From Sphingomonas sp. Ag1 (GTDB lineage Bacteria > Pseudomonadota > Alphaproteobacteria > Sphingomonadales > Sphingomonadaceae): a stretch of DNA of 64,000 nucleotides. The position numbers were made by a program, and so were the translations under genes. The notes beneath the pieces are model-generated. The model had not been told where the DNA came from, did not search any database, and saw only the letters and a program-made list of their open reading frames with translations. Shown here piece after piece: positions 45,382 through 64,000 of the stretch. Numbering within the stretch: position 1 is the stretch's first letter; every line of letters begins with the position of its first letter. The stretch covers positions 62,001-126,000 of the forward strand of contig NZ_LAZX01000093.1 of assembly GCF_000980895.1 (NCBI RefSeq), given 5' to 3'.

Positions 45382-45436
45382 AGTCCGCATTTTGCGGACC
45401 GTTCGACGTACGCAGGGTACAGGGGAGGACTTTCTG

Positions 45437-48400
45437 ATGGGGAGCTTTGCGGCTCGCTCGCTTTCGCGCCTGGTGATTGGCGCATCGGTTGCGGCACTGG
45501 CGACCGCCCCGGGCATGGCCTGGGCGCAGGACGCGGCAGCAACGGTCGGCAGCACCGGCCCTGCCGAAACGCCCGCCACGGCTTCCGAGCCGACGCAGGG
45601 CGAGGACGATATCGTCGTCACCGGCATCCGTGCCTCGCTGCGCCAGGCGATCGACATCAAGCGCGACGCACAGGGCGTCGTTGATGCGATCTCGGCCGAG
45701 GACATCGGCAAGTTCCCGGACACCAACCTCGCCGAGTCGCTTCAGCGCATCACCGGCGTGTCGATCGATCGGTCGAACGGTGAAGGTTCGTTCGTCACCG
45801 TCCGTGGCTTCGGCCCGGAATATAATCTCGTCACGCTGAACGGCCGTCAGATGCCGACGTCGACGCTGGGTGATGGTGCCAGCGCGCCGGCTTCGCGTTC
45901 GTTCGACTTTGCGAACCTCGCCTCCGAGGGCATCGCTGGCGTCGAGGTGTACAAGACCGGCCGCGCGGCTGTTCCGTCGGGCGGCATCGGTTCGTCGATC
46001 AACATCCGCACCCCGCGCCCGCTCGACAAGCCGGGCATGCGTGGCAGCATTGCCGCGCGCGGCGTTCTAGACTCCTCGCAGAACGGCAAGAACCAGATCC
46101 TGCCGGAAGTTTCCGGCATCTTCTCCACCACCTTCGCTGACGATCGCATCGGCATCATGGTCAACGGCGTGTACCAGCGCCGCAAGGCGAGCGCGAACGA
46201 GGCGTTCGTCGGCTTCCGCGACGGCTTCCTCGGCTCGCAGGACGACTGGGGCTCGCTGCCGCGTAATCCGGCGCAGGTGAACCGCCCCTCCGGCAATGAC
46301 GTCTACGAGATTCCCCAGGAAGCATCGTACAACGTCCGCGACATCGACCGTGAGCGTATCAACGGCCAGGCCGTCTTGCAGATCAAGCCGACCGACACGC
46401 TGACCGCGACGGCCGACTTCACCTATTCGCGCAACAAGGTTGAAGTGCGCTCCAACAGCGTTGGCGTGTGGTTCAACTTCGGCGACGTGTCGAGCGAGTG
46501 GACCGACGGCCCGGTCGCCGGTCCGGTGTTCTACAGCGAGGCTTTCGGCCCGGGTAAGGACCTGTCGTACAGCGGCGCGCTGAGCGCCAATGTCAGCGAG
46601 AACAAGTCGCTCGGCTTCAACCTGAACTGGGAAGCGCCGGGTGGCGTCACCGTGTCGTTCGACGCGCATCACTCGACCGCGGAATCGCGCCCGACGAACG
46701 ATTATGGCACCAGCACCAACATTGGCAGCGCCGTGTTCGGTGTGGCGCGCCAGACGATCGATTTCCGCAACGCGCTGCCGATCATTTCCTATTCGATGCA
46801 GCCCGGCATCGACCCGCTGAACGCATCTTTGGTCACGCCGACCGGCAATTCGTTCCGCAACGCGTATTTCCGTGACGAGATCAACCAGTTCCAGCTGAAG
46901 GGCCGGTACGAGCATGAGGGCGCGTTCCTCGACTCGATCGACTTCGGCTTCTCGTACATCGATAACGAAGTGCGGTCGGCCTATGGCTTCATCCAGAACG
47001 ACACCTGGGGCGGCATCGACCCGCGCGGCGCCAGCTTCGGTGCGGCAGCGACGCCGGACGATCTGTTCAGCCTGATCAGCCTGCCGGACAAGTTCCGCGG
47101 CGTGCCGGGCGCCGGCGACGCGGCGCTGCCGCAGCAAATCCTGGGCTTCAACTTCGAACGCATGGCAGAGCTGCTGCGTGGCCAGTACAACATCTGTGGT
47201 GCGCCGCAGGTTGGTACGGCCCAGCCGGGTACCTGCCTTGCCGACTTCACCACCGACCGTCGCCTGCGCGAAAAGACGATCTCGCCATACGTCCAGGTGA
47301 ACTCGAGCTTCGACCTCCTGGCCGGCGCGGCGCACATCATCGCTGGTGTCCGCTACGACCAGACCACCGTTACCTCCAACGCGCTGGTACAGGTGCCGAC
47401 GGGAACCCGCTGGACGGCAGCGAACGAATTCGCGCTGGTCTATGCGCCGGAGCGCTCGTTCATCACGTCCAAGGGCAGCTACCAGAACTGGTTGCCAGCG
47501 ATCGACTTCGACATGGAGCCGATCCGCAACGTGAAGCTGCGTGCGTCGTACAGCCACACCATCACGCGCCCCGACTATGGCGTGCTGCAGGGCGGGCTTG
47601 AACTGGCGTCGAACCCGCGCATCGGCGGCGGCACCGGCACCAATGGCAACCCGAACCTGATCCCGTTCAAGTCGAAGAATATCGATGTGTCGGCCGAGTG
47701 GTATTACAACCGCGAAAGCTACATCTCGGTCGGCTTCTTCAACAAGGACGTGCAGAACTTCATCGGCACCACGCAGATCGACCAGTCGGCGTTCGGCCTG
47801 CGCAACCCTGCTGACGGCCCGCGGTATCGCGCCGCACAGGCGGCTCTGGGCGGCACGACGGATGCGATCCAGATCCGCGACTACATTCTGCGCAACTTCC
47901 CGGGATCCTCGCAGGTCACCGGCCAGGTTGAAGCAGGCGGGGTGACCTATCTGAACGGCAACATCTTCGGCCTGCCCGAGGACAATCTGTTCAACTTCCA
48001 GATCAACCAGCCGTTCAACAGCGACCAGACCGCCAATATCAACGGCTGGGAATTCGCGATACAGCACCGGTTCTGGGACACGGGCTTCGGCACGATCCTG
48101 AACTACACGATCGTGAACGGCGACGCGAAGTTCAACAACGCGCTGAACCCGAACACCAGCCAGTTCGCGCTCGTGGGTCTGAGCGACAGTGCGAACGCCG
48201 TGCTGTTCTTTGACAAGTTCGGGCTGCAGGCACGTGCTGCGTACAATTGGCGCGCGTCGTTCCTGAACAGCAGCAACGGCTTCGATCCGACCTATGTCGA
48301 ATCCTACGGCCAGCTGGACGCGAGCGTCGCCTATGAGTTCATCCCTGGACTCACCGTGTTCGGGGAGGCGATCAACCTGACCGGCGAAGCGCGCCGTGGG

Positions 48401-48481
48401 CATCGTCGATCGGACCGGATGGTCACCTTCTCGCAGCCGGGCTTTGCCCGCTACAGCGCAGGCGTCCGCTTCAACTTCTGA
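45437..48481 (+). CDS. TonB-dependent receptor, carbohydrate-locus type
   Basis: A 1014-residue outer-membrane receptor of the large alphaproteobacterial class. It has a signal peptide ([16 protein letters not shown]) and TonB box [17 protein letters not shown]. The plug contains [20 protein letters not shown], then [20 protein letters not shown] and [12 protein letters not shown] large barrel ends in [12 protein letters not shown]. Receptors of this kind are typically encoded with glycosidases and halogenase/SapC genes and import oligosaccharides. Here GH3 is divergent and GH130 lies beyond. The ATG at 45437 follows GGGGAGGAC; the open frame upstream covers the operator and is not coding. 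The sugar is unknown. Confidence 0.94.
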
Positions 48482-48493
48482 TCGGACGCCCGG

Positions 48494-48526
48494 AGAGCCG
48501 CCCTTCCGCGATGGACGGGCGGCTCT
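48494..48526 (+). terminator. hairpin between TonB receptor and halogenase 1
   Basis: A 10-bp perfect stem, AGAGCCGCCC and GGGCGGCTCT, with a 13-base loop, starting 12 bases after the receptor stop and followed by TATGGG. It could attenuate rather than end transcription, giving high receptor and lower halogenase expression. An in-frame ATG at 48511 lies in its loop, which argues against that start for the next gene. Confidence 0.55.
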
Positions 48527-48567
48527 TATGGGTGAAACGGCGCGTTGGTGCGCCGACAGAGGTGAGC

Positions 48568-50127
48568 GTGGGCGTGAAACGGCAGGTCGCCAACATCGTG
48601 ATCGTCGGCGGGGGCACCGCCGGATGGCTCGCGGCCGCCACGATCGCGGCGTGCGCCGATCCTACTGCGCAACCTCCCGTGCAGGTCACGCTGATCGAAT
48701 CCCCTGACGTGCCGACGATCGGTGTCGGGGAGGGGACCTGGCCGACAATCCGCCGTACGCTCGCCCGCATCGGGATCAGCGAGGCGGAATTTCTGCTCGC
48801 CTGCGACGCTTCGTTCAAACAGGGGTCGCGCTTTGACAGCTGGCGCAATGGGGCGCCGGATGATTCCTACCTTCACCCCTTTTCAGCCCCGGTCGAGGCC
48901 GATCCGCGGGCGCTCGTCGCCGCGTGGCAGGCCGGCGAAGAGGAAGGCTTTGCGGCGGCCGTCACGCCGCAGGCGCGGGCCTGCGCACTGGATCTCGCAC
49001 CAAGGCAGCGGGCAATGCCGGACTATGCCGGTGCGCTGAACTACGCCTATCATCTCGACGCGGTGAAGCTGGCTGCGCTGCTTCGTCGCCATGCGACCCA
49101 GCGGCTTGGCGTGCGCCATGTCCGCGATCATGTACTGTCGGTCGACCGCCGCCACGACGGGGACATCGCCGCCGTTCGCTGCCGCGATCATGGCGCGATG
49201 GAGGGCGATCTGTTTATCGATTGCACCGGTCATGCCGCGCTGTTGATTGGCGGCGCGCTCGGCGTGCACTTCATCGACCGTGGCCACGAACTATTCAACG
49301 ACCGCGCCTTGGCCGTGCAGGTGCCGGTGGCGGCGGGAAGTGCCATCGCGTCAACCACCAATGCCACCGCGCATGAGGCAGGCTGGATCTGGGACATCGG
49401 CCTGCCGACGCGGCGTGGCGTCGGATGCGTCTATTCGTCGGCGCACCTCACCGATGACGCGGCAGAGGGAATCTTGCGCGCGTATCTCGGGCGGACCACG
49501 CCCGCTGCCAATCTGGACGCACTTGCCCCGCGAAAGCTGACGTTCCGTTCGGGACATCGCACGCGGTTCTGGGAGCGCAATTGCCTCGCCATCGGCCTGT
49601 CGAGCGGCTTTCTGGAACCGCTGGAGGCGTCGGCGATCGTGACGATCGAACTGGCGCTGGATGCGCTTGTGGCGAACTTTCCCGCAACCCGCGCGAGCAT
49701 GGATGCGCATGCCGACCGGTTCAACGCACTGTTCCGCTATCGCTGGGACCGCATCGTCGACTTCCTGAAACTTCACTACGTGCTCAGCGACCGCGGCCAG
49801 CCCTATTGGCGTGACAATCGCGATCGCTCGTCGATTCCGCATAGCCTTGCCGGCCTGCTGGCGATCTGGCGTGAGCAACCACCCAGCGGGCACGACCTTG
49901 GCATGGTGGACGAGGTGTTTCCCGCGGCCAGCTATCAATATGTGCTGTACGGCATGGGCATGGCGCCGCCCCCGCCCGGTCCCATGCGGATCGAGGGCGT
50001 GCCCCCCGCGAGCGCTGCACTCCGGCAGGCGGCGCAGCGCGCGCGCGCGCTTGCGGCCAGCCTTCCCACCAATCGTGCCTATCTCGACGTCCTGCGCGCA
50101 GATCGGCAGAACGAGATCATCGCATGA
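48568..50127 (+). CDS. flavin-dependent tryptophan halogenase-family protein (1)
   Basis: A 519-residue FAD enzyme. The dinucleotide motif is [12 protein letters not shown]. The expected catalytic Lys is Lys84 ([14 protein letters not shown]), and the Glu pair is at 350/353 ([13 protein letters not shown]). The halogenase motif W-x-W-x-I-P is altered: W273-I-W275-D-I-G278. The family includes PrnA and RebH, but the many paralogues beside TonB receptors and SapC have no proven substrate. A GTG at 48568 is chosen because AGAGG precedes it; an ATG at 48511 would add 19 unlike residues. The stop overlaps the SapC start by four bases. Confidence 0.85.
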
Positions 50128-50840
50128 ACCCCCATCACGCCATTCTGACCCCCGAGGCCCATCGCGACCTGCGCGTCCGCATCGATCGCGACGTAGCACT
50201 GGGTGACGGCGTGATGACCAGCGTCGTCATGCCGGCGGAGTTCCGCGATGCGCAGCAGCATTACCCAATTCTCTTCCGGCTGAATGCGGAGCGTGACGAT
50301 TTCACCGCGCACGCAATCTTCGGCTTTGAGACCGCAGAAAATCTGTTCCTGGAGGGCGCGCGCTGGGACGCCGATTACGTGCCGCTCGCGCTGGATGTGC
50401 AGCCCTTCCTGATCGGTGGCCCCGACGCGTCCGGAGCGCGACAGGTCCATATCGACCTCGGCAGCCCGCGCATTGCTGGCGAAGAGGGCGTGCGCGTGTT
50501 CGAGCCGGAAGGTACGCCGACGCCATTTCTCGAAACGATTGCCGACCGGCTCGGTGCGCTGCATACCGGTTTTGAGGAGTCGGCGGCATTTTTCGCCGCG
50601 CTTCGCTGGCATGATCTTCTCGAGCCGCTGACCCTTGAAGTGACGCTGAACGATGGTTCGACGCACCGACTGGTCGGCTTTCACGTGATCGACGAAGGCC
50701 GGTTGCGCGCACTCGACGGCGCGGCGCTGACCGAGCTTCATGGAGAGGGCCATCTGATGCCAATCTTCATGGCCCTCGCCTCGCTCGGCAACCTGCGGGC
50801 GCTCGTCGCGCGCAAGAACAAGCGCGACGGCCATGGCTGA
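50124..50840 (+). CDS. SapC-family protein
   Basis: A 238-residue protein of the SapC family (named after a Campylobacter S-layer gene). Typical segments are [20 protein letters not shown] then [40 protein letters not shown] and the C-terminal [20 protein letters not shown]. It has no signal peptide or membrane helix, so it is probably cytoplasmic. The family is common beside TonB receptors and tryptophan halogenases in Caulobacter, xanthomonads and sphingomonads; its biochemical role is unknown. It overlaps the halogenase gene before it (4 bases) and the cupin gene after it (8 bases). Confidence 0.9.
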
Positions 50841-51870
50841 TCCGGCCGCATCGCCCGGCATCTTTGCGCGCATGGCGGCGGTGCCCGAACGCTCGGTTGC
50901 TGATGCGGCCGCGCTAGATGCGGCATTGCGGGATGCCACCGCCCCCTTCGTCGTGCGCGGCCTGGTGCGTGACTGGCCGCTGGTGCAGGCGGGGCAGCAA
51001 TCCGCACAGGCCGCGCGCGACTATATCGCGGCACGCGCCAAGGACGTCGCGTTCACCGTCTCCGTGGGCCAGCCGGGCAGCGGAGGGCGGCTGTTCTACG
51101 ACGACACGATGGCGATGAACTTTCGCGTCGGGCGGGGCAAGCTGCACGACATCTTCCGCCACATCGCCAGCGTCGAGGACCAGCCGGACGCCCCGCCGAT
51201 CTACCTTGCGTCGATCGACATGAAGGCTTTCTTCTCTGGCCTGACCAGCGACAATCCGCTCGCGCTCGGTGATCGCGATCTGCTGAAGAGCATCTGGATC
51301 GGCACCAGAACGCGCATCGCCGCGCACAACGATTTTCCGCACAATCTGGCCTGCGTGGCAGTGGGACGGCGGCGCTTCACGCTGTTTTCGCGTGAGCAGT
51401 TCCGCAATTTGTATCTGGGACCGATCGACAACACGCCGGCCGGCCGCGCGGTCAGCATGGTCGATTTCCACAATCCCGACCTCGCCGCGCATCCGCGTTT
51501 CGCGCAGGCGGCGGAAGCGGCGCAGACCGTGGTGCTGGAGCCGGGCGACGCGCTCTACATACCGTCGCTCTGGTGGCATCACGTGGAGGGCCTCGACCCC
51601 TTCAATGTGCTGGTAAATTATTGGTGGCGGGAAACGCCGCGCTGGTTGGGGCAACCGCAGGACGCGCTGAACCACGCGATCATGTCCATTCGCGAGTTGC
51701 CGGTGGACGAACGGGCGTATTGGCGCGACATGTTCGATTATTACGTGTTCGGTGACCCCGATCTTCCGCGTGCGCACATCCCGGCGCAGGCACAAAGCGT
51801 GCTCGGCCCGCTTGATCCTGAAACGGCCGGGCGGATCCGCGGCTTCCTGTTGCGGCAGCTCAGCAAGTGA
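50833..51870 (+). CDS. cupin-like (JmjC-type) Fe(II)/2-oxoglutarate oxygenase
   Basis: A 345-residue protein of the Cupin_8/JmjC-like group. The iron facial triad is visible as His165-x-Asp167 (RIAAHNDFPHNLACVAVG) and His249 or His250 (PSLWWHHVEGLDPF). The opening PFVVRGLVRDWPLVQAG is typical. Relatives hydroxylate proteins, and the group also includes asparaginyl and lysyl hydroxylases. Here it is wedged between SapC and a halogenase with overlaps on both sides (8 and 4 bases), which ties it to one pathway with them. Target unknown; a peptide or protein side chain is the reasonable guess. Confidence 0.88.
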   Translation: MADPAASPGIFARMAAVPERSVADAAALDAALRDATAPFVVRGLVRDWPLVQAGQQSAQAARDYIAARAKDVAFTVSVGQPGSGGRLFYDDTMAMNFRVGRGKLHDIFRHIASVEDQPDAPPIYLASIDMKAFFSGLTSDNPLALGDRDLLKSIWIGTRTRIAAHNDFPHNLACVAVGRRRFTLFSREQFRNLYLGPIDNTPAGRAVSMVDFHNPDLAAHPRFAQAAEAAQTVVLEPGDALYIPSLWWHHVEGLDPFNVLVNYWWRETPRWLGQPQDALNHAIMSIRELPVDERAYWRDMFDYYVFGDPDLPRAHIPAQAQSVLGPLDPETAGRIRGFLLRQLSK

Positions 51871-53360
51871 CGCCGCGCCGGATCGTCATTGCGGGCGGAG
51901 GCACCGCCGGCTGGATGGCCGCGGCGGCGATCGCGCGCACCATGGGCCGCGCGGCACAAGTGACGCTGGTCGAATCTGAGGCGATCGGAACGATCGGCGT
52001 CGGCGAAAGCACGATCCCGCCGATCGTCGGCTTCAATCGCTTGCTCGGCATCAACGAAGCCGAGTTCATGGCGGCGACCAATGCCACCTTCAAACTTGGT
52101 ATCGTGTTCGATGGCTGGCGCAATGGCACCGATCGCTACGTTCACGCCTTTGGCCTGACCGGCAAGGATCATTGGGCAGCGGGATTTCAGCATTTCTGGC
52201 TCGCTGGGCGCGCCAAGGGGCATCAGGCGCCATTTGGCGATTATTCGGTTGAGCTCCAGGCGGCGCTGGCGGGGAAGTTCGCGCATCTGCCTGACGATCG
52301 CCTGAACTATGCCTACCAGCTCGATTCCGGCCTCTATGCGAAGTTCCTGCGCGGGATGGCGGAGCGCGACGGGGCGGTACGGATCGAGGGCAAGATCGCC
52401 ACGGTACAGCTGGATGGCGACAGCGGAGACATCGCGGCGCTGGTGCTGGAGGATGGCACCGCGATCGCCGGCGACCTGTTCCTCGACTGCACAGGATTTC
52501 GCGCCCTGCTGATCGAGGGCGCGCTGCACGCCGGCTTCGATGACTGGACCCATTGGCTGCCGTGCGATTCCGCGATCGCGGTGCAAACGGCGAGCGTGGG
52601 GCCGGCGGTGCCCTACACCCGCGCCATGGCCCATGATGCCGGATGGCAGTGGCGCATCCCCCTGCAGCACCGGGTCGGAAACGGCATCGTGTGGTGCAGT
52701 CGCTATCTGTCACGCGAAGACGCGCTGGAACGGCTGCTCGGCAACGTCGAGGGTGAGGTGCTGACGCAGCCCAATCACCTGCGCTTCACCACAGGGGTGC
52801 GGCGTCGCCAATGGCATCGCAATTGCGTTGCCGTCGGCCTGTCGGGCGGGTTCATGGAGCCACTGGAGTCCACCAGCATCCACCTGATCCAGCGCGCCGT
52901 CCTGCGGTTGATCCGGATGATGCCGGCAGCCGGACCGATCAGCCCGCGCGACATTGCCGAGTTCAATGATCAGCAGCACGCCGACATGGTGCAGGTCCGC
53001 GACTTCCTGATCCTGCATTACAAGGCCACCGACCGGCGCGACAGCGCGTTCTGGCGGCAATGCGCCGCAATGCCGATCCCCGACAGTCTCGAACAGAAGA
53101 TCGAGCTGTTCCGCGACACGGCGCGTGTGTTCCGCCGCAACGAGGAATTGTTCGCGGAGCATAGCTGGCTGCAGGTGCTGCTGGGGCAGGGGATCGAGCC
53201 GCATGCCTGGCATCCGATCACCGGCAAGCTGACCGACGAGGAACTGGCGCGGCTGCTTCAGACGCTGCGTGCCCAGGTGACGCGCACGGTCAATGGGTTG
53301 CCGGCCCATGCCGATTATGTCGCCCGCTATTGCGCCGGCGCGCGCCAGAGCGCTGCCTGA
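51867..53360 (+). CDS. flavin-dependent tryptophan halogenase-family protein (2)
   Basis: A 497-residue FAD enzyme with all halogenase hallmarks: IAGGGTAGW near the N-terminus, catalytic Lys76 (ATFKLGIVFDGWRNG), the intact W260-x-W262-R-I-P265 motif (AGWQWRIPLQHRVGNG) and Glu331/Glu334 (SGGFMEPLESTSIHLI). It starts with a GTG overlapping the cupin stop. It is a divergent paralogue of the gene at 48.6 kb. Proven members chlorinate or brominate free tryptophan or related substrates with FADH2 from a separate reductase; no reductase gene is here. Confidence 0.9.
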   Translation: MTPRRIVIAGGGTAGWMAAAAIARTMGRAAQVTLVESEAIGTIGVGESTIPPIVGFNRLLGINEAEFMAATNATFKLGIVFDGWRNGTDRYVHAFGLTGKDHWAAGFQHFWLAGRAKGHQAPFGDYSVELQAALAGKFAHLPDDRLNYAYQLDSGLYAKFLRGMAERDGAVRIEGKIATVQLDGDSGDIAALVLEDGTAIAGDLFLDCTGFRALLIEGALHAGFDDWTHWLPCDSAIAVQTASVGPAVPYTRAMAHDAGWQWRIPLQHRVGNGIVWCSRYLSREDALERLLGNVEGEVLTQPNHLRFTTGVRRRQWHRNCVAVGLSGGFMEPLESTSIHLIQRAVLRLIRMMPAAGPISPRDIAEFNDQQHADMVQVRDFLILHYKATDRRDSAFWRQCAAMPIPDSLEQKIELFRDTARVFRRNEELFAEHSWLQVLLGQGIEPHAWHPITGKLTDEELARLLQTLRAQVTRTVNGLPAHADYVARYCAGARQSAA

Positions 53361-53368
53361 GGATCGTC

Positions 53369-54418
53369 ATGGGGCGTCGCCGGCAGTCGGTCACCATCAA
53401 GCATGTCGCCGCCCATGCGGGGGTGTCGTTGCAGACGGTCAGCCGTGTCATCAACAAGGAGCCCAATGTCCGGCCCGAGATGATGCAACGCGTGCAGGAA
53501 TCGATCGCGGCGCTTGGTTATGTGCCGTCAATCGCGGCGCAGCGGATGGGCGGTTCGCGATCCTATCTTCTGCTGGCTCTGAACGATCGCGACCGCACGA
53601 TTGCGGACTGGCGCAAGCGCGAGGGGTCCGACTGGATCGACCAGATGCTGCTCGGTGGGATGCTGACCTGCGCGCAGCATGGCTATCGCATGATCTTTGA
53701 GCTGGTCGACACGCACAGTGACCATATCGAGCGGGAGTTGTCGGCCGCGCTCGCCGCGCTGCAACCCGATGGCGTGATCCTGACGCCGCCGCATTCGCAC
53801 AACCCCATGATCACAGACCTGCTGGAAAAGGCGGGGATCGCCTTTGCGCGTATCGGGTCGCTGCGTGACGGGGGCGGGTTCCGGCTGACGATGGGTGACG
53901 AGGTGGCGGCGCGCGATGCGACGATGCACCTCGTCGGGTTGGGGCACCGGCGTATCGGTTTCATCGCAGGACCCACCGACTATGAGCTAAGCCATTGGCG
54001 GGTCGAGGGCTGGCGCTGGACGATGGAGACGGCGGGGCTTTCCGCCGATGGCCTGCTGGCGAACGGCGATTTCAGCTATGCCTCGGGCATTGCGGCGGCG
54101 AAGCAACTGATTGAGGCCGGTGCCACGGCCATCGTCGCGAGTAACGATCAGATGGCGCTCGCCGCGATTGCCGAGGCGCGTGATTGCGGCATGGACGTAC
54201 CGCGCGACCTGTCCGTGGTCAGCTTCGACGACACGCCCGTCGTCCGCTTCCATCATCCGCCGCTCACCGCCATCGCGCAGCCGATCGCCGAGGTGACGGC
54301 GCGTGCCGCCGAATTGCTGATCACCACCGCCGCGGACGCCCGCGACCGTGCGCCGGTGGAGGTGTCGGCGCGGCTCGTGGTGCGGGAATCCACCGCAGCG
54401 GTGCCGACCAACCTCTGA
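53369..54418 (+). CDS. LacI-family transcriptional regulator
   Basis: A 349-residue repressor. The N-terminal HTH is VTIKHVAAHAGVSLQTVSRV with the hinge INKEPNVRPEMMQRVQESIA. The periplasmic-binding-protein-like effector domain follows, with GLGHRRIGFIAGPTDYELSH, ATAIVASNDQMALAAIAEAR and LSVVSFDDTPVVRFHHPPLT. It is last in the receptor-halogenase operon, 8 bases behind halogenase 2. The likely targets are the two GAACGTTC palindromes at 45.3 kb. The effector should be a sugar released by the locus, perhaps a beta-glucoside or beta-mannoside. Confidence 0.93.
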   Translation: MGRRRQSVTIKHVAAHAGVSLQTVSRVINKEPNVRPEMMQRVQESIAALGYVPSIAAQRMGGSRSYLLLALNDRDRTIADWRKREGSDWIDQMLLGGMLTCAQHGYRMIFELVDTHSDHIERELSAALAALQPDGVILTPPHSHNPMITDLLEKAGIAFARIGSLRDGGGFRLTMGDEVAARDATMHLVGLGHRRIGFIAGPTDYELSHWRVEGWRWTMETAGLSADGLLANGDFSYASGIAAAKQLIEAGATAIVASNDQMALAAIAEARDCGMDVPRDLSVVSFDDTPVVRFHHPPLTAIAQPIAEVTARAAELLITTAADARDRAPVEVSARLVVRESTAAVPTNL

Positions 54419-54425
54419 TCGCGCG

Positions 54426-55712
54426 TCAGGCCTTGACCATAACCGATAGCAGGTCGTCGACGTTGCCGATGGCGAAGGCGCTATATTCGTCACCGATCGC
54501 GTAGGGCAGCAGGATGCGCCGTTTGTGGAGCAGCGCGCCGCAGCTATAGGTGATGTTGGGCACATAGCCACCGCGCTGCTCCGCGCTCGGGAACAGCAGC
54601 GGCGATGCCGTGCGCAGCAGCACCTGCGATGGATCCGCCTTGTCCAGCAGGCACGCGCCGATGCTGTAGCCGCGCACCAGCCCGACGCCATGGGTGAATA
54701 CCAGCCAGCCCTCGTCAATCTCGATCGGGGAGCCGCAATTCCCCATCTGGACGAACTCCCACGGGTATTTCGGTCCCATGATCTGCTGCCCCTCGTCCCA
54801 ATGGTCGAGCCGGTCAGAGCGCAGCAACCAGATATTCTCATTGTCCTGGCGACCCAGCATGACGAACTTGCCATCGATCCGCCGCGGGAACAGCGCCATT
54901 CCCTTGTATGGGGCCAAGCGGCCGGTCAGCGCGCGCATCTCCACCGTGCGCAGGTCAACCCCGCGCAGCAACTCGGCGCGGGCGTGCATGCCGTCATAAG
55001 CGGTATAGGTGCCGATGACGCTTCGGGCACCATCATCATCGGTGAAGTTCACCATTCGGAGATCCTCGATCCCGGAACGCTGGCTCGGCAGCACCGGGAA
55101 CAGCACGGTCTCGGACACGTCGTCGCTGTCGCTGCACAACAGACGCGTCCAGCCATCATGCTCATGATCGATGCGGGGCGGGATGCCGTGTTGGCTGGCC
55201 GGATTGACCTCGATGCGGTCGCTGCCGTCCCAGGTGCCGGTTCGGAACGTCACGGAGGAGATATGACCTTCGCCGATCCCGCGCAGCGACAGGAGGAAGG
55301 GCATCGCCTCATCATCGGGGCTGGCGTCGGGGACTCGGATGATGCTGGGATTGAACAATGCGGCGGATTCGAAGGCATATTCCTGGCTGAAATATGCTCC
55401 GATCAGAAGTCGGTCCGTGCTGTCGATGGTACCGTTGAGATCAAGGGAGGCGGCAACCTCGTCATAGCGGCGCAGGAAGGTTTCGTCGGCGTTGCGATGG
55501 CGTTCGTGCATCGGCACGGCCAGCAGCATGCGCATCCGGGCGCGCAGTGCTGGCGGCAGCGACAGCAGCCGCTGCGCAACCTGTTTCATGCGGGCGGGGC
55601 GCCCGTCCGCCATGTCGTCGGGATAGTCGAAGCTGAACGGGCGGATCACGGTGCGGGAGGGATCGGGTTTCAGCTCGATATCCAGCGTGGTGAAGACGTC
55701 CGCTGCTTTCAT
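54426..55712 (-). CDS. glycoside hydrolase/phosphorylase family 130
   Basis: A 428-residue GH130 protein. Family marks are FNPSIIRVPDA (first blade), SGIEDLRMVNFTDDDGAR with the likely catalytic Asp, GNCGSPIEIDEGWLVFTHGV and GYVPNITYSCGALLHKRRIL. GH130 enzymes phosphorolyse beta-1,4- or beta-1,2-mannosides, so mannose-containing glycans are a candidate substrate of this locus. No signal peptide: cytoplasmic, as expected for a phosphate-using enzyme. Its start overlaps the stop of the MscS gene (ATGA), so the two are coupled. Its end lies 7 bases from the convergent LacI gene. Confidence 0.9.
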   Translation of the reverse strand: MKAADVFTTLDIELKPDPSRTVIRPFSFDYPDDMADGRPARMKQVAQRLLSLPPALRARMRMLLAVPMHERHRNADETFLRRYDEVAASLDLNGTIDSTDRLLIGAYFSQEYAFESAALFNPSIIRVPDASPDDEAMPFLLSLRGIGEGHISSVTFRTGTWDGSDRIEVNPASQHGIPPRIDHEHDGWTRLLCSDSDDVSETVLFPVLPSQRSGIEDLRMVNFTDDDGARSVIGTYTAYDGMHARAELLRGVDLRTVEMRALTGRLAPYKGMALFPRRIDGKFVMLGRQDNENIWLLRSDRLDHWDEGQQIMGPKYPWEFVQMGNCGSPIEIDEGWLVFTHGVGLVRGYSIGACLLDKADPSQVLLRTASPLLFPSAEQRGGYVPNITYSCGALLHKRRILLPYAIGDEYSAFAIGNVDDLLSVMVKA

Positions 55713-57574: not shown

Positions 57575-58753
57575 ATGAGCGACCAACCGCATCAGACCGC
57601 CGGCGACACGTCGATCATCGAGACGCCGGAGGCACAGGGTGAGACAACGCCGCGCCGTCGCCTCAGCGGACGCGCCCGCCTGATTCTTCTTCTAGTGCTG
57701 TTGGCAGCGATACTCGGCGGCGCGCTGTGGCTGGTGCGGTATCAGACCAGCGGCAAATTCATGCAGGAGACCAATGACGCCTACATCCGGGCCGATCTGG
57801 TCACCATCGCGCCCAAGGTGAGCGGCTATGTCGCCGAGGTGCTCGTTGCCGACAATCAGGACGTGACTGCGGGGCAGCCGCTCGTCCGGATCGATCCGCG
57901 ATCCTACCGCGCGCAGGCGGCGCAAGCCGAAGCGCAGATCGCGCAGGCGGAGGCGAGTGCCAACGCCAGCCGTGCCCAGATTGCGCAGCAGCGCGCGGCG
58001 ATTGAGCAGGCGCAGGCCCAGTTCGCCGCGGCGCAGGCCAAGGCACGCTACGATGCGGACGAGGTGCGCCGCTATACGCCGCTCGCCGAGTCGGGCGCCG
58101 AGAGCCGGCAGCAACTCGCCCAGCTGCGCGCTGCGGCCGATCAGTCGGCGGCGAATGCACGCGCGCAGGCCGCGGCGCTTGCCGCGCAGCAGCGCCAGGT
58201 CGCGACACTGGAGGCGCAGATCGGCCAGTCCCGCGCCCAGCGGCAGGGTGCCGCGGCACAATTGGCGGCGGCGAACGTGGACGTGTCGTCGACGGTCATC
58301 CGGTCGCCCGTGGCAGGTCGCATCGGCGACAAGACCGCGACGGTCGGCCAGTTCGCCACGGCCGGGACGCGATTGATGTCGGTGGTGCCGCTGCGCCAGA
58401 TTTATGTGACCGCCAATTTCAAGGAAACGCAGCTCGCCCTGATGCGTCCCGGCCAGCCGGCGACGATCAAGGTTGACGCCCTTGACGGTACTGAGCTGCG
58501 CGGACGCGTCGCCAGCCTGTCGCCAGGAACGGGTGCGCAATTCTCCTTGCTGCCGCCACAAAATGCGACCGGCAATTTCACCAAGATCGTGCAGCGGGTG
58601 CCGGTGCGGATCGCGCTTGAGGCGAGCCCCGCCGCGCGTCGCCTGCTGGTGCCGGGCCTGTCGGTAACGGTGACGGTCGACACGCGCAGCGCCAAGGGAC
58701 AGTTGGATCAGATCCGGTCGGAGCAGAAGCGGCTGTCGGAACGGAGCCGCTGA
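57575..58753 (+). CDS. emrA: HlyD/EmrA-type membrane fusion protein
   Basis: A 392-residue periplasmic adaptor. One membrane helix near 32-50 (LILLLVLLAAILGGALWL) anchors it. The lipoyl halves (VSGYVAEVLVADNQDVTAGQ and VRSPVAGRIG-type STVIRSPVAGRIGDKTATVG) flank a long Ala/Gln-rich coiled coil (about 115-240). A beta-barrel domain with YVTANFKETQLALMRPGQPA follows. EmrA proteins connect the EmrB carrier to an outer-membrane channel. AAAAGG precedes the ATG. It is first in a three-gene operon, with 2 bases to emrB. Confidence 0.92.
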   Translation: MSDQPHQTAGDTSIIETPEAQGETTPRRRLSGRARLILLLVLLAAILGGALWLVRYQTSGKFMQETNDAYIRADLVTIAPKVSGYVAEVLVADNQDVTAGQPLVRIDPRSYRAQAAQAEAQIAQAEASANASRAQIAQQRAAIEQAQAQFAAAQAKARYDADEVRRYTPLAESGAESRQQLAQLRAAADQSAANARAQAAALAAQQRQVATLEAQIGQSRAQRQGAAAQLAAANVDVSSTVIRSPVAGRIGDKTATVGQFATAGTRLMSVVPLRQIYVTANFKETQLALMRPGQPATIKVDALDGTELRGRVASLSPGTGAQFSLLPPQNATGNFTKIVQRVPVRIALEASPAARRLLVPGLSVTVTVDTRSAKGQLDQIRSEQKRLSERSR

Positions 58754-58755
58754 GC

Positions 58756-60315
58756 ATGGCGAGCGCGGCGATCTCGCCAGCGGCGGCGCCACCTGAACGC
58801 GCCGATGTGTCGGCGTGGGTGGCGGTCGCGGCCGGCACGTTAGGCGCGCTGATGGCGACGCTCGATATCTCCATCGTCAATTCCGCGCTGCCCGTCATCC
58901 AGGGCGAGATCGGCGCCAGCGGCACCGAAGGGACATGGGTCGCCACCGCCTATCTCGTGGCGGAGATCGTCGTCATCCCGATGGCAGCATGGCTACAGCG
59001 GCTGCTGGGGCTTCGCACGTTCCTATTGACCGCGGCGGGGCTGTTCACGCTGTTTTCGGTCGTATGCGGTACTGCCACGACGCTGACGATGATGATCATC
59101 GGGCGGGTGGGGCAGGGCTTCACTGGCGGCGCGATGATCCCGACGGCGCAGACGATCATCGCGCAGCGCCTGCCGCCGCGCCAGCAGCCGATCGGCATCG
59201 CCTTGTTCGGGGTGACCGCGATCCTCGGCCCGGTGGTGGGTCCGCTGGTCGGCGGGTGGCTGACCGAGAATATCAGCTGGCACTATGCCTTCTTCATCAA
59301 CGTGCCGATCTGCGCCGTGCTGGTGACCATGCTGCTCGTCGGGCTGAAGCATGAAAAGGCAGACATGACCGAGCTGGGCAATGCCGACTGGCTGGGCATT
59401 GCGGGCCTCACCCTCGGGCTGGGCGGCCTCACCGTCTTCCTGGAAGACGGGCAGCGCGAACAATGGTTCGATTCCGGCCTGATCCGGCTGATGACTTTGA
59501 TATCATTGGTCGGCTTCGTGCTGCTGTTCATCGGGCAGCGCACGGCAACCCGGCCGATCATCAAGCTCAGCCTGCTGCTCGACCGTCAGTTCGGCTCGGT
59601 CGCGTTGATGGGACTGGTGCTCGGCATGGTGCTGTACGGCACATCCTACGTCATCCCGCAGTTCCTCGCTGCACTGGCAGATTACAATGCCCTGCAATCG
59701 GGGAAGGTCGTGCTGCTGTCGGGCCTGCCCAGCCTGGTCATGATGGCGATCGTGCCGTTCCTGCTGCGCAGCGTCGATATCCGGCTGGCGGTGGGCGCGG
59801 GACTGCTGATCATGGCGGGATCTGCCTTTCTCGACTCCGGCCTCACCACCGAGACGAGCGGCAGCGACTTCACCGTGTCGCAGCTGATGCGCGGCGTGGG
59901 GCAGATACTGGGCATGTTGTTCCTGAGCCAGGCAGTGGTGCGATCCGTGCCCGCGGCCGACGCCGGCGATGCATCGGGATTGTTCAACGCGGTGCGCAAC
60001 CTGGGCGGCAGTTTCGCGCTGGCCGGCATCTCGATCCTGCAGGAGCAGCGGCTGTGGCTGCACTCGCGCCGGATGGAAGAAACGCTGAACGCCAATTCGC
60101 CGATGGTGCAGGATTATGTCGGCGGGCTCAGCCAGTCGCTCGGCAGCACCCCCGCAGCACTCGGCATGATCGCGCAGCAGGTTCAGGCGCAGGCGCTGGT
60201 CATCGCCTATAACGATATCTTCTGGATCATGGGGGTGGGTACGTTGATCGTGCTGCCGCTGGTCCTGTTCCTTCGTCCACTGCCCAAGGACGCCGCGCCA
60301 GCGGCGATGCACTGA
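58756..60315 (+). CDS. emrB: DHA2-family MFS drug efflux carrier, EmrB-like
   Basis: A 519-residue, 14-helix major-facilitator antiporter. The DHA2 marks are GALMATLDISIVNSALPVIQ in helix 1, GTEGTWVATAYLVAEIVVIP, RVGQGFTGGAMIPTAQTIIA and the antiporter motif C-like AILGPVVGPLVGGWLTENIS. It exports hydrophobic toxic compounds in exchange for protons, working with the EmrA-like adaptor and the NodT-type channel. Its stop overlaps the start of the channel gene (TGATG). Specific substrates cannot be predicted. Confidence 0.93.
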   Translation: MASAAISPAAAPPERADVSAWVAVAAGTLGALMATLDISIVNSALPVIQGEIGASGTEGTWVATAYLVAEIVVIPMAAWLQRLLGLRTFLLTAAGLFTLFSVVCGTATTLTMMIIGRVGQGFTGGAMIPTAQTIIAQRLPPRQQPIGIALFGVTAILGPVVGPLVGGWLTENISWHYAFFINVPICAVLVTMLLVGLKHEKADMTELGNADWLGIAGLTLGLGGLTVFLEDGQREQWFDSGLIRLMTLISLVGFVLLFIGQRTATRPIIKLSLLLDRQFGSVALMGLVLGMVLYGTSYVIPQFLAALADYNALQSGKVVLLSGLPSLVMMAIVPFLLRSVDIRLAVGAGLLIMAGSAFLDSGLTTETSGSDFTVSQLMRGVGQILGMLFLSQAVVRSVPAADAGDASGLFNAVRNLGGSFALAGISILQEQRLWLHSRRMEETLNANSPMVQDYVGGLSQSLGSTPAALGMIAQQVQAQALVIAYNDIFWIMGVGTLIVLPLVLFLRPLPKDAAPAAMH

Positions 60316-61775
60316 TGCGTACATCTGCTTTGCTCTGCCTCCTGCTGCTCGGCGCCTGTACGGTCGGGCCGGACTATAAGGGGCCGCCGGCGGTCGGGGC
60401 CGATGCGGCGGCGCGGGGGCAGTTCGTCCGCGGCAACGAGGCGGCGGTGCGGTCGCCGGGCGTGGCGCGGTGGTGGGAGACGCTGGGCGATGCGACGCTC
60501 GACCGGCTGGTCGATGACGCGCTGGCGTACAGCCCGAGCATCGCTGCGGCAGAGGCGCGGATCCGGCAGGCGCAGGCGCAGGCGCGGCAGCAACGCGCCA
60601 ATCAGGCGCCGAGCATCAGCGCCAATGGCACCTATCTGCGCGCCCAATTGCCCGGCATCGATCTGGCCGACGACAGCGGGGGATCGGGCGGTGGCGGGTC
60701 AGGATCGGAGTCAAATGGCCTCGATTTCTACAACCTTGGCCTGAATGCCTCGTGGGAGCCCGATCTGGTCGGCGGCGTGCGCCGGGGGATCGAACAATCG
60801 CGCGCCGCGGTCGGGCAGCGTTACGCCGATCTGGCGGATGCACAGGTGAGCCTGACCGCGCAGGTGGCGCAGGCGTACGTCAATTATCGCGATGCGCAGG
60901 AGCGTATCGCGCTGAACGCCCGCTCGTCCGAGCTCCAGCGCCAGTCGCTGGCGCTGATGGAGCAAAGGCTGGCGGCGGGCACGGTGTCGGCCCTGCAGGT
61001 CGAACGGCTGAAGACCGACCTGGAAAGCACGGAGGCGCAGGCGATCCCGCTCACCGCGCAGGCGGACGAATATCGCGACGTGCTGGCGTTGCTGACCGGC
61101 CGTACGCCCGGCGCGCTGGATGCGACGCTCGCCGCGCCGGTGCCGGTGCCGCTGCCCCCGGCCAAGGTGGCGGTGGGCGATCCCGCCGCGCTGATCGCCA
61201 GTCGGCCCGACATCCGTGCCGCCGAACGAGCACTTGCCGCCAGCACCGCCGCAATCGGGGTGAACGAGGCGAAACGCTATCCCGCGATCCGGTTCATGGG
61301 GATCCTGGGCATGGGTGGTACGTCGCCCGGCGATGTGCTGGACCCGGGCAATCTGACGACGCTGCTGGCGCCGCAGATCAGCTGGTCGTTCCTCGATCTC
61401 GGGCGCACCGCCGCCGCCGTCCGCCAGTCCGAAGCACAGCGCGACGAGGCAGAGGCCAATTACCGCCAGACCGTTCTGACCGCCTTGCAGGATGCGGAGA
61501 CGAGCCTGTCGCGTTTCGCCGCCACCCGGCGGCAGCTCGCCCGGCTGGCGAGCGCCGAGCAATCGGCATCGCGCGCCGCCGCGCTGAACCGGCAGCGGGT
61601 GGAGGCGGGCACCAGCACGCTGATCGACCAGCTCGATGTCGAGCGGCAGCGACTGTCCGCAGCGATGGCGGTGGCGCAGGCCAAGGCACAGCTGACCAAC
61701 AGCTTCGTCGCGGTGAACAAGGCGCTGGGGCTGGGATGGGCGCCGGTGGCAGGCGGGGAGCAGCCCGGCGGGTAG
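60315..61775 (+). CDS. NodT-family outer-membrane efflux lipoprotein (TolC-like)
   Basis: A 486-residue outer-membrane factor. The lipobox LLLGAC and CTVGPDYKGP are the standard NodT/OprM start. Duplicated TolC-type coiled-coil halves are visible in LAYSPSIAAAEARIRQAQAQ, YVNYRDAQERIALNARSSEL, then APQISWSFLDLGRTAAAVRQ and QRVEAGTSTLIDQLDVERQR. A short Ser/Gly stretch (DDSGGSGGGGSGSE, about residue 119) is an insertion in a loop. It completes the tripartite EmrAB-type pump as the outer-membrane exit duct. Confidence 0.92.
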   Translation: MRTSALLCLLLLGACTVGPDYKGPPAVGADAAARGQFVRGNEAAVRSPGVARWWETLGDATLDRLVDDALAYSPSIAAAEARIRQAQAQARQQRANQAPSISANGTYLRAQLPGIDLADDSGGSGGGGSGSESNGLDFYNLGLNASWEPDLVGGVRRGIEQSRAAVGQRYADLADAQVSLTAQVAQAYVNYRDAQERIALNARSSELQRQSLALMEQRLAAGTVSALQVERLKTDLESTEAQAIPLTAQADEYRDVLALLTGRTPGALDATLAAPVPVPLPPAKVAVGDPAALIASRPDIRAAERALAASTAAIGVNEAKRYPAIRFMGILGMGGTSPGDVLDPGNLTTLLAPQISWSFLDLGRTAAAVRQSEAQRDEAEANYRQTVLTALQDAETSLSRFAATRRQLARLASAEQSASRAAALNRQRVEAGTSTLIDQLDVERQRLSAAMAVAQAKAQLTNSFVAVNKALGLGWAPVAGGEQPGG

Positions 61776-61786
61776 CTGATCCCCCG

Positions 61787-62332
61787 CTAGCGCGGGGCGA
61801 GCCCGCGCAGCAGGAGATCGAGCGCCTCGGCAATTTCCGCCTCCACCGCGTCATTCACCTGCTTGTCGACGATGAAGCCCGACATCATCCGCATCGCGGT
61901 GACGAGGTGGCGCGCGGTGACGTCGGGCCTGAGCTCCCCCGCCGCGATGGCACGTTCCACCGCCGTGGCGAACAGCCGTTCCAGCCGGTCGCCGAGCGCG
62001 GCAAAGGCGGCGAGATTGTCGCGCGACAGCTGCATGTCGAGCCGGAGGCGGGTGAACAGCTGCCAGGAGAACAGCCCGTCGCGCACCAGCAGCGGCAACA
62101 GCTGCGCGATCGGCTTGGTGGGATCGAACCGTTCCTCGAACGCGGACACCTGCCGTTCGAAGATGGCGAAGGCGAGGTCGAGCCGATCCTTGAAATTGCG
62201 ATACAGGGTGCCGCGCCCGACGCCGGCGCGCGCAGCGATATCCTCCAGCGGGACACCGAAGCCGTCGGCGTCGAAACACGCCGCGGCGGCCTCCAGCAGC
62301 GCTTCCCGCCGGGCGCGTGCATCACGGCGCAT
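61787..62332 (-). CDS. TetR/AcrR-family transcriptional regulator
   Basis: A 181-residue repressor. The HTH (about 8-55) reads ARREALLEAAAACFDADGFG, VPLEDIAARAGVGRGTLYRN and FKDRLDLAFAIFER. The helical ligand-binding part follows and ends LDLLLRGLAPR. It converges on the efflux operon with 11 bases between stops, and is the likely regulator of that operon through the spacer operator at 57.52 kb. No matching repeat was found in front of its own gene, so autoregulation is not evident. Confidence 0.92.
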   Translation of the reverse strand: MRRDARARREALLEAAAACFDADGFGVPLEDIAARAGVGRGTLYRNFKDRLDLAFAIFERQVSAFEERFDPTKPIAQLLPLLVRDGLFSWQLFTRLRLDMQLSRDNLAAFAALGDRLERLFATAVERAIAAGELRPDVTARHLVTAMRMMSGFIVDKQVNDAVEAEIAEALDLLLRGLAPR

Positions 62333-62598: not shown

Positions 62599-64000
62599 AT
62601 GAGTAACGTCCTGATCGAAATCCGCGTCGACGATGCGTCAGGGCTGGCCGCGGCCATCGCCGGCGGCGCCGACCGCATCGCGCTATGTTCGTCGCTGGCG
62701 CTGGGCGGGCTGACGCCGACGCCAGGCCTGCTGCGGCAAGCCGCACAATCGCCGGTCCCGGTGCGCGCGATGATCCGGCCGCGCGAGGGCAATTTTTCCT
62801 ATGATGCGGCGGAGCGTGCCGCGATGCTGCACGATATCGATGTCGCGCGTGCCGAGGGCCTGAGCGGCGTGGTAATTGGCGCGCTGACCCCCGACGGCGA
62901 GCTGGACGTGGCGTTGCTGGAGGAGATGGTCGCCCGGGCGGTCGGCATGGACGTGACGCTGCATCGCGCGGTCGACCTGCTGCCCGACCCGGTGGCTGCG
63001 GTGGAGATCGCCGCCGAGCTTGGCATCGCCACCATCCTGACGTCCGGTGGCGCCCGCACCGCGGCGGCAGGGGCGGCCACCATTGGCCGGATGCGCGCGC
63101 AGGCGGGCGACCGGGTGGAGATCATGGCGGGCGGTACGATCCGGGCGACAGACGTCGCCGCGCTGGTCGAGGAGACCGGCGTTCGCGCGGTTCATGCCGC
63201 CGCATCCCGCCCGCGTGTCGCCTGGGCCCCGGCGCTGCGGCTGGGGTTTGAAAGCGAGCTTGCCCGCACCACCGACTGGGAGGAAGTGGCGCGGCTGCGC
63301 GCCGCGCTGCGCCGACCTGCCACCATGCGCCCGGTGCCGATCGCCGCCCCGCCGGCCAAGCCCGATCCGGCGGGCACGTTGATGCACAACGAGGCGGGTG
63401 AGGCGCCCGAAGCCGCCGCCCGCTTCCTGGCGCGCAACAGCGCAACGATCGCGCGGCTGGCGGCGCGATTGCGGCGCGACCCGCCGCCGTTCATCGTCAC
63501 CTGCGCGCGCGGATCATCCGATCATGCGGCGACGTACGGCAAATATCTGTTCGAGACCAAGACGGGGATCACCGTCGCCTCCGCCGCGCCGTCGATCGCG
63601 TCGCTATATCGCGCGCCGCTGGAGGCCAAGGGCGCCTTGTGCCTGGCGATTTCGCAATCGGGCCGCAGCCCCGACCTGCTGGCGACGGCGGCGGCCTACA
63701 AGGCCGGTGGCGCCTTGGTCGTCGCGATGGTCAATGACGAGGAATCGCCACTGGCGGCGTGCGCCGACGAGGTGCTGCCGCTGTGCGCCGGGCCGGAGCG
63801 ATCGATCGCGGCGACCAAATCCTATATCACGACGCTGGTCGCGCAGGCCGCGCTGGCAGCAGCATGGGCGAGCGACGCAGCGTTGCAGGAGCGGCTGGCG
63901 GCGCTACCCGATGCGCTGTCGCGCGCCTTTGCGCTACGCTGGGGCGCGGCGATCCCGCCGCTGGTCGGCGCGCGTGACCTGTTCGTGCTGGGGCGCGGCT
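62599..64000 (+). CDS. CutC-SIS fusion protein (partial, C-terminus beyond window)
   Basis: One open frame of 467 codons to the window edge joins two families. Residues about 1-228 are a CutC-type TIM barrel: GGADRIALCSSLALGGLTPT, RAMIRPREGNFSYDAAERAA, VVIGALTPDGELD and ILTSGGARTAAAGAATIGRM. A Pro-rich linker (about 243-260) leads to a SIS domain from Met262: FIVTCARGSSDHAATYGKYL, CLAISQSGRSPDLLA and SIAATKSYITTLVAQ, as in NagB-II/AgaS-type amino-sugar phosphate deaminase-isomerases. No glutamine amidotransferase domain is present. The ATG at 62599 follows GGAAGG; an in-frame ATG at 62470 adds 43 unlike residues. The SIS half might also be translated separately from Met243 or Met262. Confidence 0.88.
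   Translation, partial: MSNVLIEIRVDDASGLAAAIAGGADRIALCSSLALGGLTPTPGLLRQAAQSPVPVRAMIRPREGNFSYDAAERAAMLHDIDVARAEGLSGVVIGALTPDGELDVALLEEMVARAVGMDVTLHRAVDLLPDPVAAVEIAAELGIATILTSGGARTAAAGAATIGRMRAQAGDRVEIMAGGTIRATDVAALVEETGVRAVHAAASRPRVAWAPALRLGFESELARTTDWEEVARLRAALRRPATMRPVPIAAPPAKPDPAGTLMHNEAGEAPEAAARFLARNSATIARLAARLRRDPPPFIVTCARGSSDHAATYGKYLFETKTGITVASAAPSIASLYRAPLEAKGALCLAISQSGRSPDLLATAAAYKAGGALVVAMVNDEESPLAACADEVLPLCAGPERSIAATKSYITTLVAQAALAAAWASDAALQERLAALPDALSRAFALRWGAAIPPLVGARDLFVLGRG

Follow-up and report, generated by a model that had tools for sequence, protein, structure and literature searches.

Why would a CutC barrel, which is present in E. coli and in people and carries a copper label, be joined in one reading frame to an enzyme domain of amino-sugar metabolism? 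The question is raised by a gene at the end of a stretch of DNA from Sphingomonas sp. Ag1, the window of this study, which comprises 64,000 nucleotides (assembly GCF_000980895.1, contig NZ_LAZX01000093.1, positions 62,001 to 126,000 of the forward strand). The fused cutC-nagB gene lies at 62599..64000 on the + strand, with the first 467 of its 594 codons inside the window. Reading of the window codons finds no stop from 62599 to 63999, and the frame continues beyond the window in the parent contig to a stop at L002:6384, 383 bases further on, to give a protein of 594 residues. The fusion is genuine, and we suggest that CutC has a role in amino-sugar metabolism and that the barrel of the window copy is non-catalytic. 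Taken as a whole, we consider this reading fairly probable.

An earlier, sequence-only reading had proposed an in-frame fusion of CutC to a SIS domain, and this is borne out by the open frame, by Pfam scores above the cut-off for both domains and by the recurrence of the fusion in seven genes from six genomes. The CutC barrel (PF03932) spans residues 5-202 (62611..63204, + strand) and is recognized by Pfam, by its PDB homologs 3iwp and 1twd, and in the AlphaFold model. It scores 213.9 bits against a cut-off of 23.3, with positions 2-200 of the 202-position profile covered, and matches human CUTC (3iwp) with an E value of 2.8e-38. It shares the barrel with the CutC family (human CUTC, 3iwp; Shigella, 1twd/1x7i), but differs from that family in being fused and in having neither the invariant Glu28 nor the common Cys9. 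Between the domains is a variable segment (residues 206-258, 63214..63372, + strand) with 40-71% identity across the fused copies, and AlphaFold confidence dips to 64 near residues 241-250. The NagB-II-type SIS domain follows at 63376..64000 (+ strand; residues 260-467 in the window, 260-594 in the whole protein). PF01380 scores 105 bits against a cut-off of 25, and the best SIS stretch is residues 299-421. The AlphaFold model has a mean predicted local distance difference test (pLDDT) score of 94.3 and each domain is confident; the domain arrangement is less sure, with a predicted template modeling (pTM) score of 0.73. A separate internal gene starting at Met243 was considered and rejected, as this Met is unique to the window among the seven fused copies. 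Met262 is found in all seven, as part of a TLM motif that also occurs in the solved homolog 7kqa, and there may be an internal start at this position.

The C-terminal part most resembles a deaminase. Its best NCBIfam model is NagB-II (NF046059), which matches residues 260-593 with 329.7 bits; the strict equivalog cut-off of 430 is not reached, but this is still the top model. An AgaS/isomerase identity was rejected, since TIGR02815 scores 19.5 bits against the 329.7 of NagB-II. The best solved relative is 7kqa (E 7e-115, 58% identity), which is titled glucosamine-6-phosphate deaminase of Stenotrophomonas maltophilia and is labeled an iron dicitrate regulator in one listing. The second is the Shewanella NagB-II 8eol (E 4e-72). 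Residues 260-594 match the NagB-II enzymes (8eol/8eym of Shewanella denitrificans; 7kqa) over their full length, with nagA next; the fusion differs from these enzymes in its added N-terminal CutC barrel and in its score under the NF046059 cut-off. Of 119 positions that are invariant in 36 unfused NagB-II proteins, the window copy keeps 115, departing at K356R, V403I, V537T and N588R, and the seven fused copies retain 112-116. The nagA gene (TIGR00221, 294.9 bits, over the cut-off) is directly downstream, with its ATG at L002:6381, within the last codons of the fusion. Thus the partner does appear to be of the amino-sugar-phosphate type that had been proposed, judging by the titles of its best solved relatives (glucosamine-6-phosphate deaminase or NagB-II), and the suggested search for an amino-sugar gene downstream ends at nagA, right after the fusion. 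By family membership, the C-terminal half would be a NagB-II-type deaminase which, together with NagA, would convert N-acetylglucosamine-6-phosphate to fructose-6-phosphate, acetate and ammonia. Since no NagB-I of the window genome passes the cut-off (best score 34.9 bits) and CutC occurs there only once, the fused gene is probably the catabolic glucosamine-6-phosphate deaminase of the cell.

The fusion combines two known families in a new domain architecture. As a single open reading frame (ORF), it occurs in seven genes in 6 of 295 genomes of the genus, with two in S. dokdonensis, and nagA adjoins every one of them. In at least 12 of the same 295 genomes cutC and nagB are separate neighbors with nagA next, a lower bound that pairs too diverged to be joined escape and from which G813 (no CutC beside nagB) and G939 (an 802-bp gap between the genes) were left out. 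The sequence-only reading had held that homologs always encoded as two genes would speak against a fusion; the search for the same fusion elsewhere found it in six genomes, and the fused and separate states both occur. No other full-length match was found in 298 sampled genomes of the family, and in the species collection the full-length matches are all from Sphingomonas, among the best 80 of 568 confirmed loci. In a tree of 95 CutCs, the CutC domains of all seven fusions group in a single clade (support 100/100), and 14 of the 15 operon CutC rows, G939 being among the 15, make up a second (100/98). Because the fused clade is not nested in the operon clade, the tree does not show the fusion to descend directly from the operon form of today. 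The distribution and the tree suggest that the fusion arose within Sphingomonas, most simply once, a claim that shares the fair probability of the reading to which it belongs.

Two of the fusions, those of G736 and of one S. dokdonensis copy, sit in a complete operon of MFS transporter, fusion, nagA and ROK kinase; at both, the opposite strand carries genes for a TonB receptor and a ROK-type regulator. The G736 transporter scores over the gluP cut-off, and its NagP score is strong but below the cut-off. Near the other five fusions, searches with these proteins at E 1e-8 turned up nagA but no comparable transporter, kinase or regulator; the sequence covered reached up to about 8 kb to either side and, for the window gene, 12.6 kb downstream and the whole window. 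The window genome has one ROK and one BadF-type gene on another contig, at most candidate N-acetylglucosamine (GlcNAc) kinases, and no amino-sugar genes were recognized near them by eye in unscanned ORF lists. A gene for an M81 (MlrC-type) metallopeptidase stands beside the complete operon at L246:15047-16591 and L247:15009-16547, where the L246 protein was scanned and the L247 gene was judged from a similar start in the ORF list. An M81 gene is also located upstream of cutC in a Palleronia plasmid locus.

Outside Sphingomonas, CutC was found in 69 of the 398 genomes of a phylum sample, the window's own being the 69th. The analysis covered flanks of about 8 kb, shorter where a contig ended, around 68 cutC loci and 5 further Sphingomonadaceae loci, making 73. 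The neighbor set consisted of glycosylasparaginase, ROK/BadF-type genes, nagA, NagB-like SIS, GH92, GH85, GH2 mannosidase and GH20. Of the 68 loci, 21 have at least one of these genes within 500 bp of cutC, and they come from 9 of 16 GTDB families; the count is not blind, since the gene families in the set were chosen post hoc and several of the queries came from the same loci. Widening the distance from 500 bp to 5 kb leaves the number of such loci at 21, a zero gain that serves as an internal control, and with 8 kb it rises to 24. The Asparaginase_2 family gives a sharper comparison. Its 59 rows in the 69 cutC genomes comprise 18 that start at profile positions 28-33, which we call glycosylasparaginase type, 39 that start at positions 1-3, which we call isoaspartyl-peptidase type, and 2 fragments. 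Two of the glycosylasparaginase-type proteins were tested and best matched Flavobacterium-type glycosylasparaginase structures (E 6e-108 and 3e-93); the remaining labels of this type follow from the profile start alone. Within 2 kb of cutC lie 10 of the 18 glycosylasparaginase-type genes versus 0 of the 39 isoaspartyl-peptidase-type genes, where about 0.02 would be expected by chance. The richest locus, L210, has in order a BadF/NagK-type kinase (274.5 bits with the NagK model, below its cut-off of 370), glycosylasparaginase, GH85, cutC, GH2 mannosidase, a sugar symporter and GH92.

Plasmids give a similar picture. CutC is present in 67 plasmid records. From the 40 listed, 12 were picked for organism spread, with the S. 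parapaucimobilis plasmid picked when its cutC neighbors had already been seen, and 10 of the 12 were annotated. Clear amino-sugar or N-glycan neighbors occur at four of the ten. These are nagA, gluP, ROK/ROK regulator, cutC, GH20 and nagB in Kozakia; GH92, ROK, glycosylasparaginase, cutC and GH2 in Hymenobacter (Bacteroidota); hexosaminidase, amidohydrolase, a tagatose-bisphosphate aldolase subunit, ROK and SIS in Paracoccus, followed by cutC on the opposite strand; and cutC, GntR, SIS and nagA in S. parapaucimobilis. A tie of unfused cutC to amino-sugar or N-glycan genes is therefore seen in part of the loci (21/68, and 4/10 on annotated plasmids). The co-location of cutC with N-glycan genes is not itself new, because PMC6718126 already lists cutC (XAC3091) inside the Xanthomonas nix N-glycan cluster. 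There, cutC is likewise within the cluster, but it is a separate gene and is filed under copper metabolism. In PMC5700972, CutC and the asparaginase XAC3092 are mentioned as predicted VirK partners.

Other genes also recur beside cutC. In GTDB family f11 (L186, L189-L194), several genomes have a same-strand ORF of about 162-169 residues that abuts the cutC end or overlaps it; the L189 ORF, the only one scanned, is a GNAT acetyltransferase. In family f49 a YecM-family gene adjoins cutC at L143, and unscanned ORFs of similar size are located upstream of cutC at L148, L150, L152 and L153.

The distribution of nagA across genomes agrees with these neighborhoods. At E 1e-3, nagA is found in all 69 cutC genomes, where the weakest best match is 3.5e-56. 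It is over the cut-off in 64 of the 69, versus 16 of 80 genomes without cutC and 16 of the 56 of these with completeness of 90% or more and contamination of 5% or less (Fisher tests 1e-20 and 3e-14, uncorrected for kinship). The set without cutC was every third handle from G300 to G576 (n = 80), with the absence of cutC taken from the lack of a match in the phylum sample.

What kind of ligand might CutC have? A model of an unfused CutC (pLDDT 95.5) matches the solved CutCs first. The next folds are barrels of phosphosugar type, MJ1099 of methanofuran biosynthesis (Z 21.0, 206 residues aligned, 2.6 Å) and the fusion 9lj9 of 3-hexulose-6-phosphate synthase and 6-phospho-3-hexuloisomerase (HPS-PHI; Z 19.8, 188 aligned, 2.4 Å), with thiamine-phosphate synthase (ThiE), PdxJ, TrpF and DERA further among the near folds. 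In this ranking, scores that differ by less than one Z unit count as ties, and similarity of fold implies no function; a family unlisted by Foldseek or VIA is not thereby excluded. By profile comparison (hhalign), unfused CutC aligns with TrpF over beta7-beta8 (66 columns, probability 84.8, P 6.5e-6). This match is the only observation at the sequence level that suggests a phosphorylated CutC ligand, and since it spans beta7-beta8 only, we claim no catalytic homology between CutC and TrpF, whose catalytic residues are Cys and Asp. The alignment was made with unfused CutCs, 67 of 73 of which have Gly at position 180 in the beta-7 loop, where the window has Thr, and a bound phosphate was not observed. 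Fold and profile comparisons together place CutC among the phosphate-binding-type TIM barrels, and this too is a part of the reading that we judge fairly probable as a whole. HPS-PHI is a telling analog, because it likewise joins a sugar-phosphate barrel to a SIS isomerase. Its N-terminal barrel is the part that aligns (chain residues 1-210 of 362), and its C-terminal part we take to be the SIS isomerase, consistent with the NF041755 match. The fusion differs in scoring 20.9 bits with NF041755 against a cut-off of 500 and is not a member of that family, so that the comparison concerns only how such a protein could work.

The barrel of the window copy has diverged at positions that are otherwise highly conserved. 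The remarks of the sequence-only reading on two residues hold, in that codon 28 (GCG, 62680..62682, + strand) encodes Ala and codon 9 (CGC, 62623..62625, + strand) encodes Arg. Residue 28 is Glu in 73/73 unfused CutCs and 8/8 Sphingomonas operon copies, and residue 9 is Cys in 64/73 unfused CutCs, 8/8 operon copies and all 6 remaining fused copies. At codon 180 (ACG, 63136..63138, + strand), Thr replaces the Gly of the other 6 fused copies. All three changes are private to the window; at positions 9, 28 and 180 the closest relative, G908 (84% overall), shows C (TGC), E (GAG) and G, though it has lost His199. Across the seven fused copies position 28 reads A (window), E, E, E, K, Q and K, so that the invariant Glu of the I-E-L-C motif, absent from the window, is kept in three. 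His199, which is present in 73/73 unfused and 8/8 operon copies, is Q in two of the seven. The window does keep the invariant beta-5 His/Arg/Asp and beta-8 His (H122, R123, D126 and H199). In total an otherwise invariant residue is missing from five of the seven fused barrels, the window's included, and three of the copies form a subclade with K/Q at 28 and A at 30. The two copies with all invariant residues are those in the complete operon, a match that rests on seven related sequences and is suggestive only. In S. dokdonensis (G706), each member of a paralog pair, L247 and L248, is a fused cutC-nagB followed by nagA; one barrel is intact and the other has K28/A30.

Selection has nevertheless kept these barrels. 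The ratio of nonsynonymous to synonymous change (dN/dS) is higher in the barrel than in the deaminase half in 21/21 pairs (0.15-0.42 vs 0.10-0.29), and all values are well under 1, though they are rough, with synonymous distances often near 1. Because invariant residues have been lost while purifying selection persists, the window barrel (E28A, C9R) is probably a non-catalytic tethered domain. In this copy and the four others, it may have been kept for folding, oligomerization or ligand sensing. In the two complete-operon fusions, where all the invariant residues are retained, the barrel is probably active. Ranging from intact barrels to ones that have lost residues, the fused copies are a natural test of which residues matter. 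Since the window barrel and four other fused copies lack invariant residues, the window copy is weak evidence for CutC catalysis. The sequence-only reading is thus borne out in part: the claim that CutC belongs with amino sugars rather than copper has support, which comes mainly from outside the window, and this copy adds no direct evidence for catalysis.

We propose that CutC in general would be a phosphate-binding-type TIM barrel that serves N-acetylhexosamine catabolism, a role to which its gene context points. It would handle an N-acetylhexosamine or its 6-phosphate near the kinase/NagA step, perhaps by an isomerase-, epimerase- or mutarotase-like reaction on a sugar from N-glycans or hexosaminides. 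More broadly, we consider it moderately probable that the CutC of bacteria and humans is a previously unrecognized N-acetylhexosamine(-phosphate) enzyme in the breakdown of N-glycans and GlcNAc/GalNAc, which in Sphingomonas was fused to an enzyme acting further along this pathway and then became a pseudoenzyme domain of the deaminase in some lineages. With the fusion, the distance-limited linkage to genes for glycosylasparaginase, N-acetylhexosamine-kinase-like proteins and nagA, and the strong co-occurrence with nagA, the function of CutC becomes a matter of assaying a few candidate substrates. Several observations weigh against this proposal. Gene association leaves the catalyzed reaction unspecified. 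The neighbor query set was picked after viewing the neighbors. At 44 of the 68 cutC loci, including every one of the 14 from GTDB family f49 and of the 9 from f53, no gene of the set occurs within 8 kb. Three of the ten annotated plasmid loci are only suggestive. In Pseudoalteromonas, cutC is accompanied by a gene of the BadF/BadG family; the order in Alkalihalophilus (Bacillota) is aminopeptidase, cutC, fucosidase and ROK; and in Palleronia a ROK gene is 3.4 kb away from cutC. The three from Parabacteroides, Entomospira and Enterococcus are without such neighbors. The genomes without cutC were not matched by family and many are incomplete. The window genome itself has neither a glycosylasparaginase-type gene nor a GH20. 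Finally, the loss of residues in five of the seven fused copies would also fit plain decay of CutC in a functionally mute fusion.

Other explanations of the fusion and of the CutC neighborhoods differ widely in how well they fare. That an assembly or sequencing artifact removed a stop between two genes has a practically negligible probability, given an ORF common to seven genes in six genomes, including two S. dokdonensis copies, and a junction region that can be aligned among them. Much closer to an even prospect, if still short of it, is that the fused barrel is an allosteric or oligomerizing domain and not an enzyme, sensing an amino-sugar phosphate and tuning the deaminase. The loss of E28 and/or H199 in five of seven copies with the fold retained and dN/dS below 0.45 would be expected of such a domain, as would the three-copy subclade with its shared substitutions at 28 and 30; but two fused copies keep every invariant residue, and the modeled domain arrangement (pTM 0.73) is uncertain. 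An alternative for CutC itself is that it acts on the 1-amino-GlcNAc or beta-GlcNAc which glycosylasparaginase and hexosaminidases release, making it usable for kinases by hydrolysis or mutarotation. Glycosylasparaginase releases a glycosylamine, and TrpF, among the close folds of CutC, rearranges a phosphorylated one. Glycosylasparaginase is also the commonest immediate neighbor of cutC (10 of the 18 genes of this type are no more than 2 kb away), and kinase-like genes of two families (ROK and BadF/NagK) adjoin cutC. However, cutC also occurs in nagA-kinase operons without glycosylasparaginase, and its phosphate-type loop suggests a phosphorylated ligand, whereas 1-amino-GlcNAc is unphosphorylated. 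We regard this alternative as unlikely.

The remaining alternative takes CutC at its name, as a copper-homeostasis protein whose fusion to the deaminase is incidental, an operon stop codon having been lost and the barrel hitchhiking. In a C. elegans review (PMC11083455), human CUTC is reported to bind Cu(I) weakly, in the micromolar range, and its knock-down to cause copper sensitivity in HepG2 cells and the worm. The same text rejects importer, exporter, classic chaperone and buffer roles for CUTC, yet concludes that it acts in copper homeostasis. For E. coli, a passage of PMC6538781 on copper sensitivity, drawing on the MicL study of Guo et al. 2014, indicates that genetics no longer backs the copper label of CutC. 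A passenger barrel could well lose invariant residues, as five of the seven have, but the barrel is still under purifying selection. RND efflux genes recur near cutC at 4 of the 73 loci (L149, L155, L198 and L201; opposite strand, 1.9-7 kb away) and also beside the Parabacteroides cutC. They were considered as copper pumps and this was rejected, since all five scanned permeases are best matched as multidrug RND. The CusA/CzcA model (TIGR00914), whose cut-off is 701, gives 363-398 bits for three of them and is unlisted at E 1e-100 for the other two. No copper family was recognized among the annotated neighbors of cutC, which are only part of the neighbors. Taken together, these points make the copper explanation quite improbable, and we favor an amino-sugar role. 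We found no paper that assigns CutC to amino-sugar metabolism, in a literature search largely outside subscription papers and preprints.

Elsewhere in the window, positions 45392-55712 hold a TonB receptor, two tryptophan-halogenase-family proteins, a Cupin_8 protein, a LacI regulator and, on the opposite strand, a GH130 mannoside phosphorylase. This is likely a glycan-utilization locus, and we claim no link between it and the fusion because an efflux operon stands between them. That region, at 57575-62332 directly upstream of the fusion, consists of HlyD, MFS and outer-membrane efflux genes and a TetR regulator. From its ORF list, the relative G908 appears to have the same efflux neighborhood.

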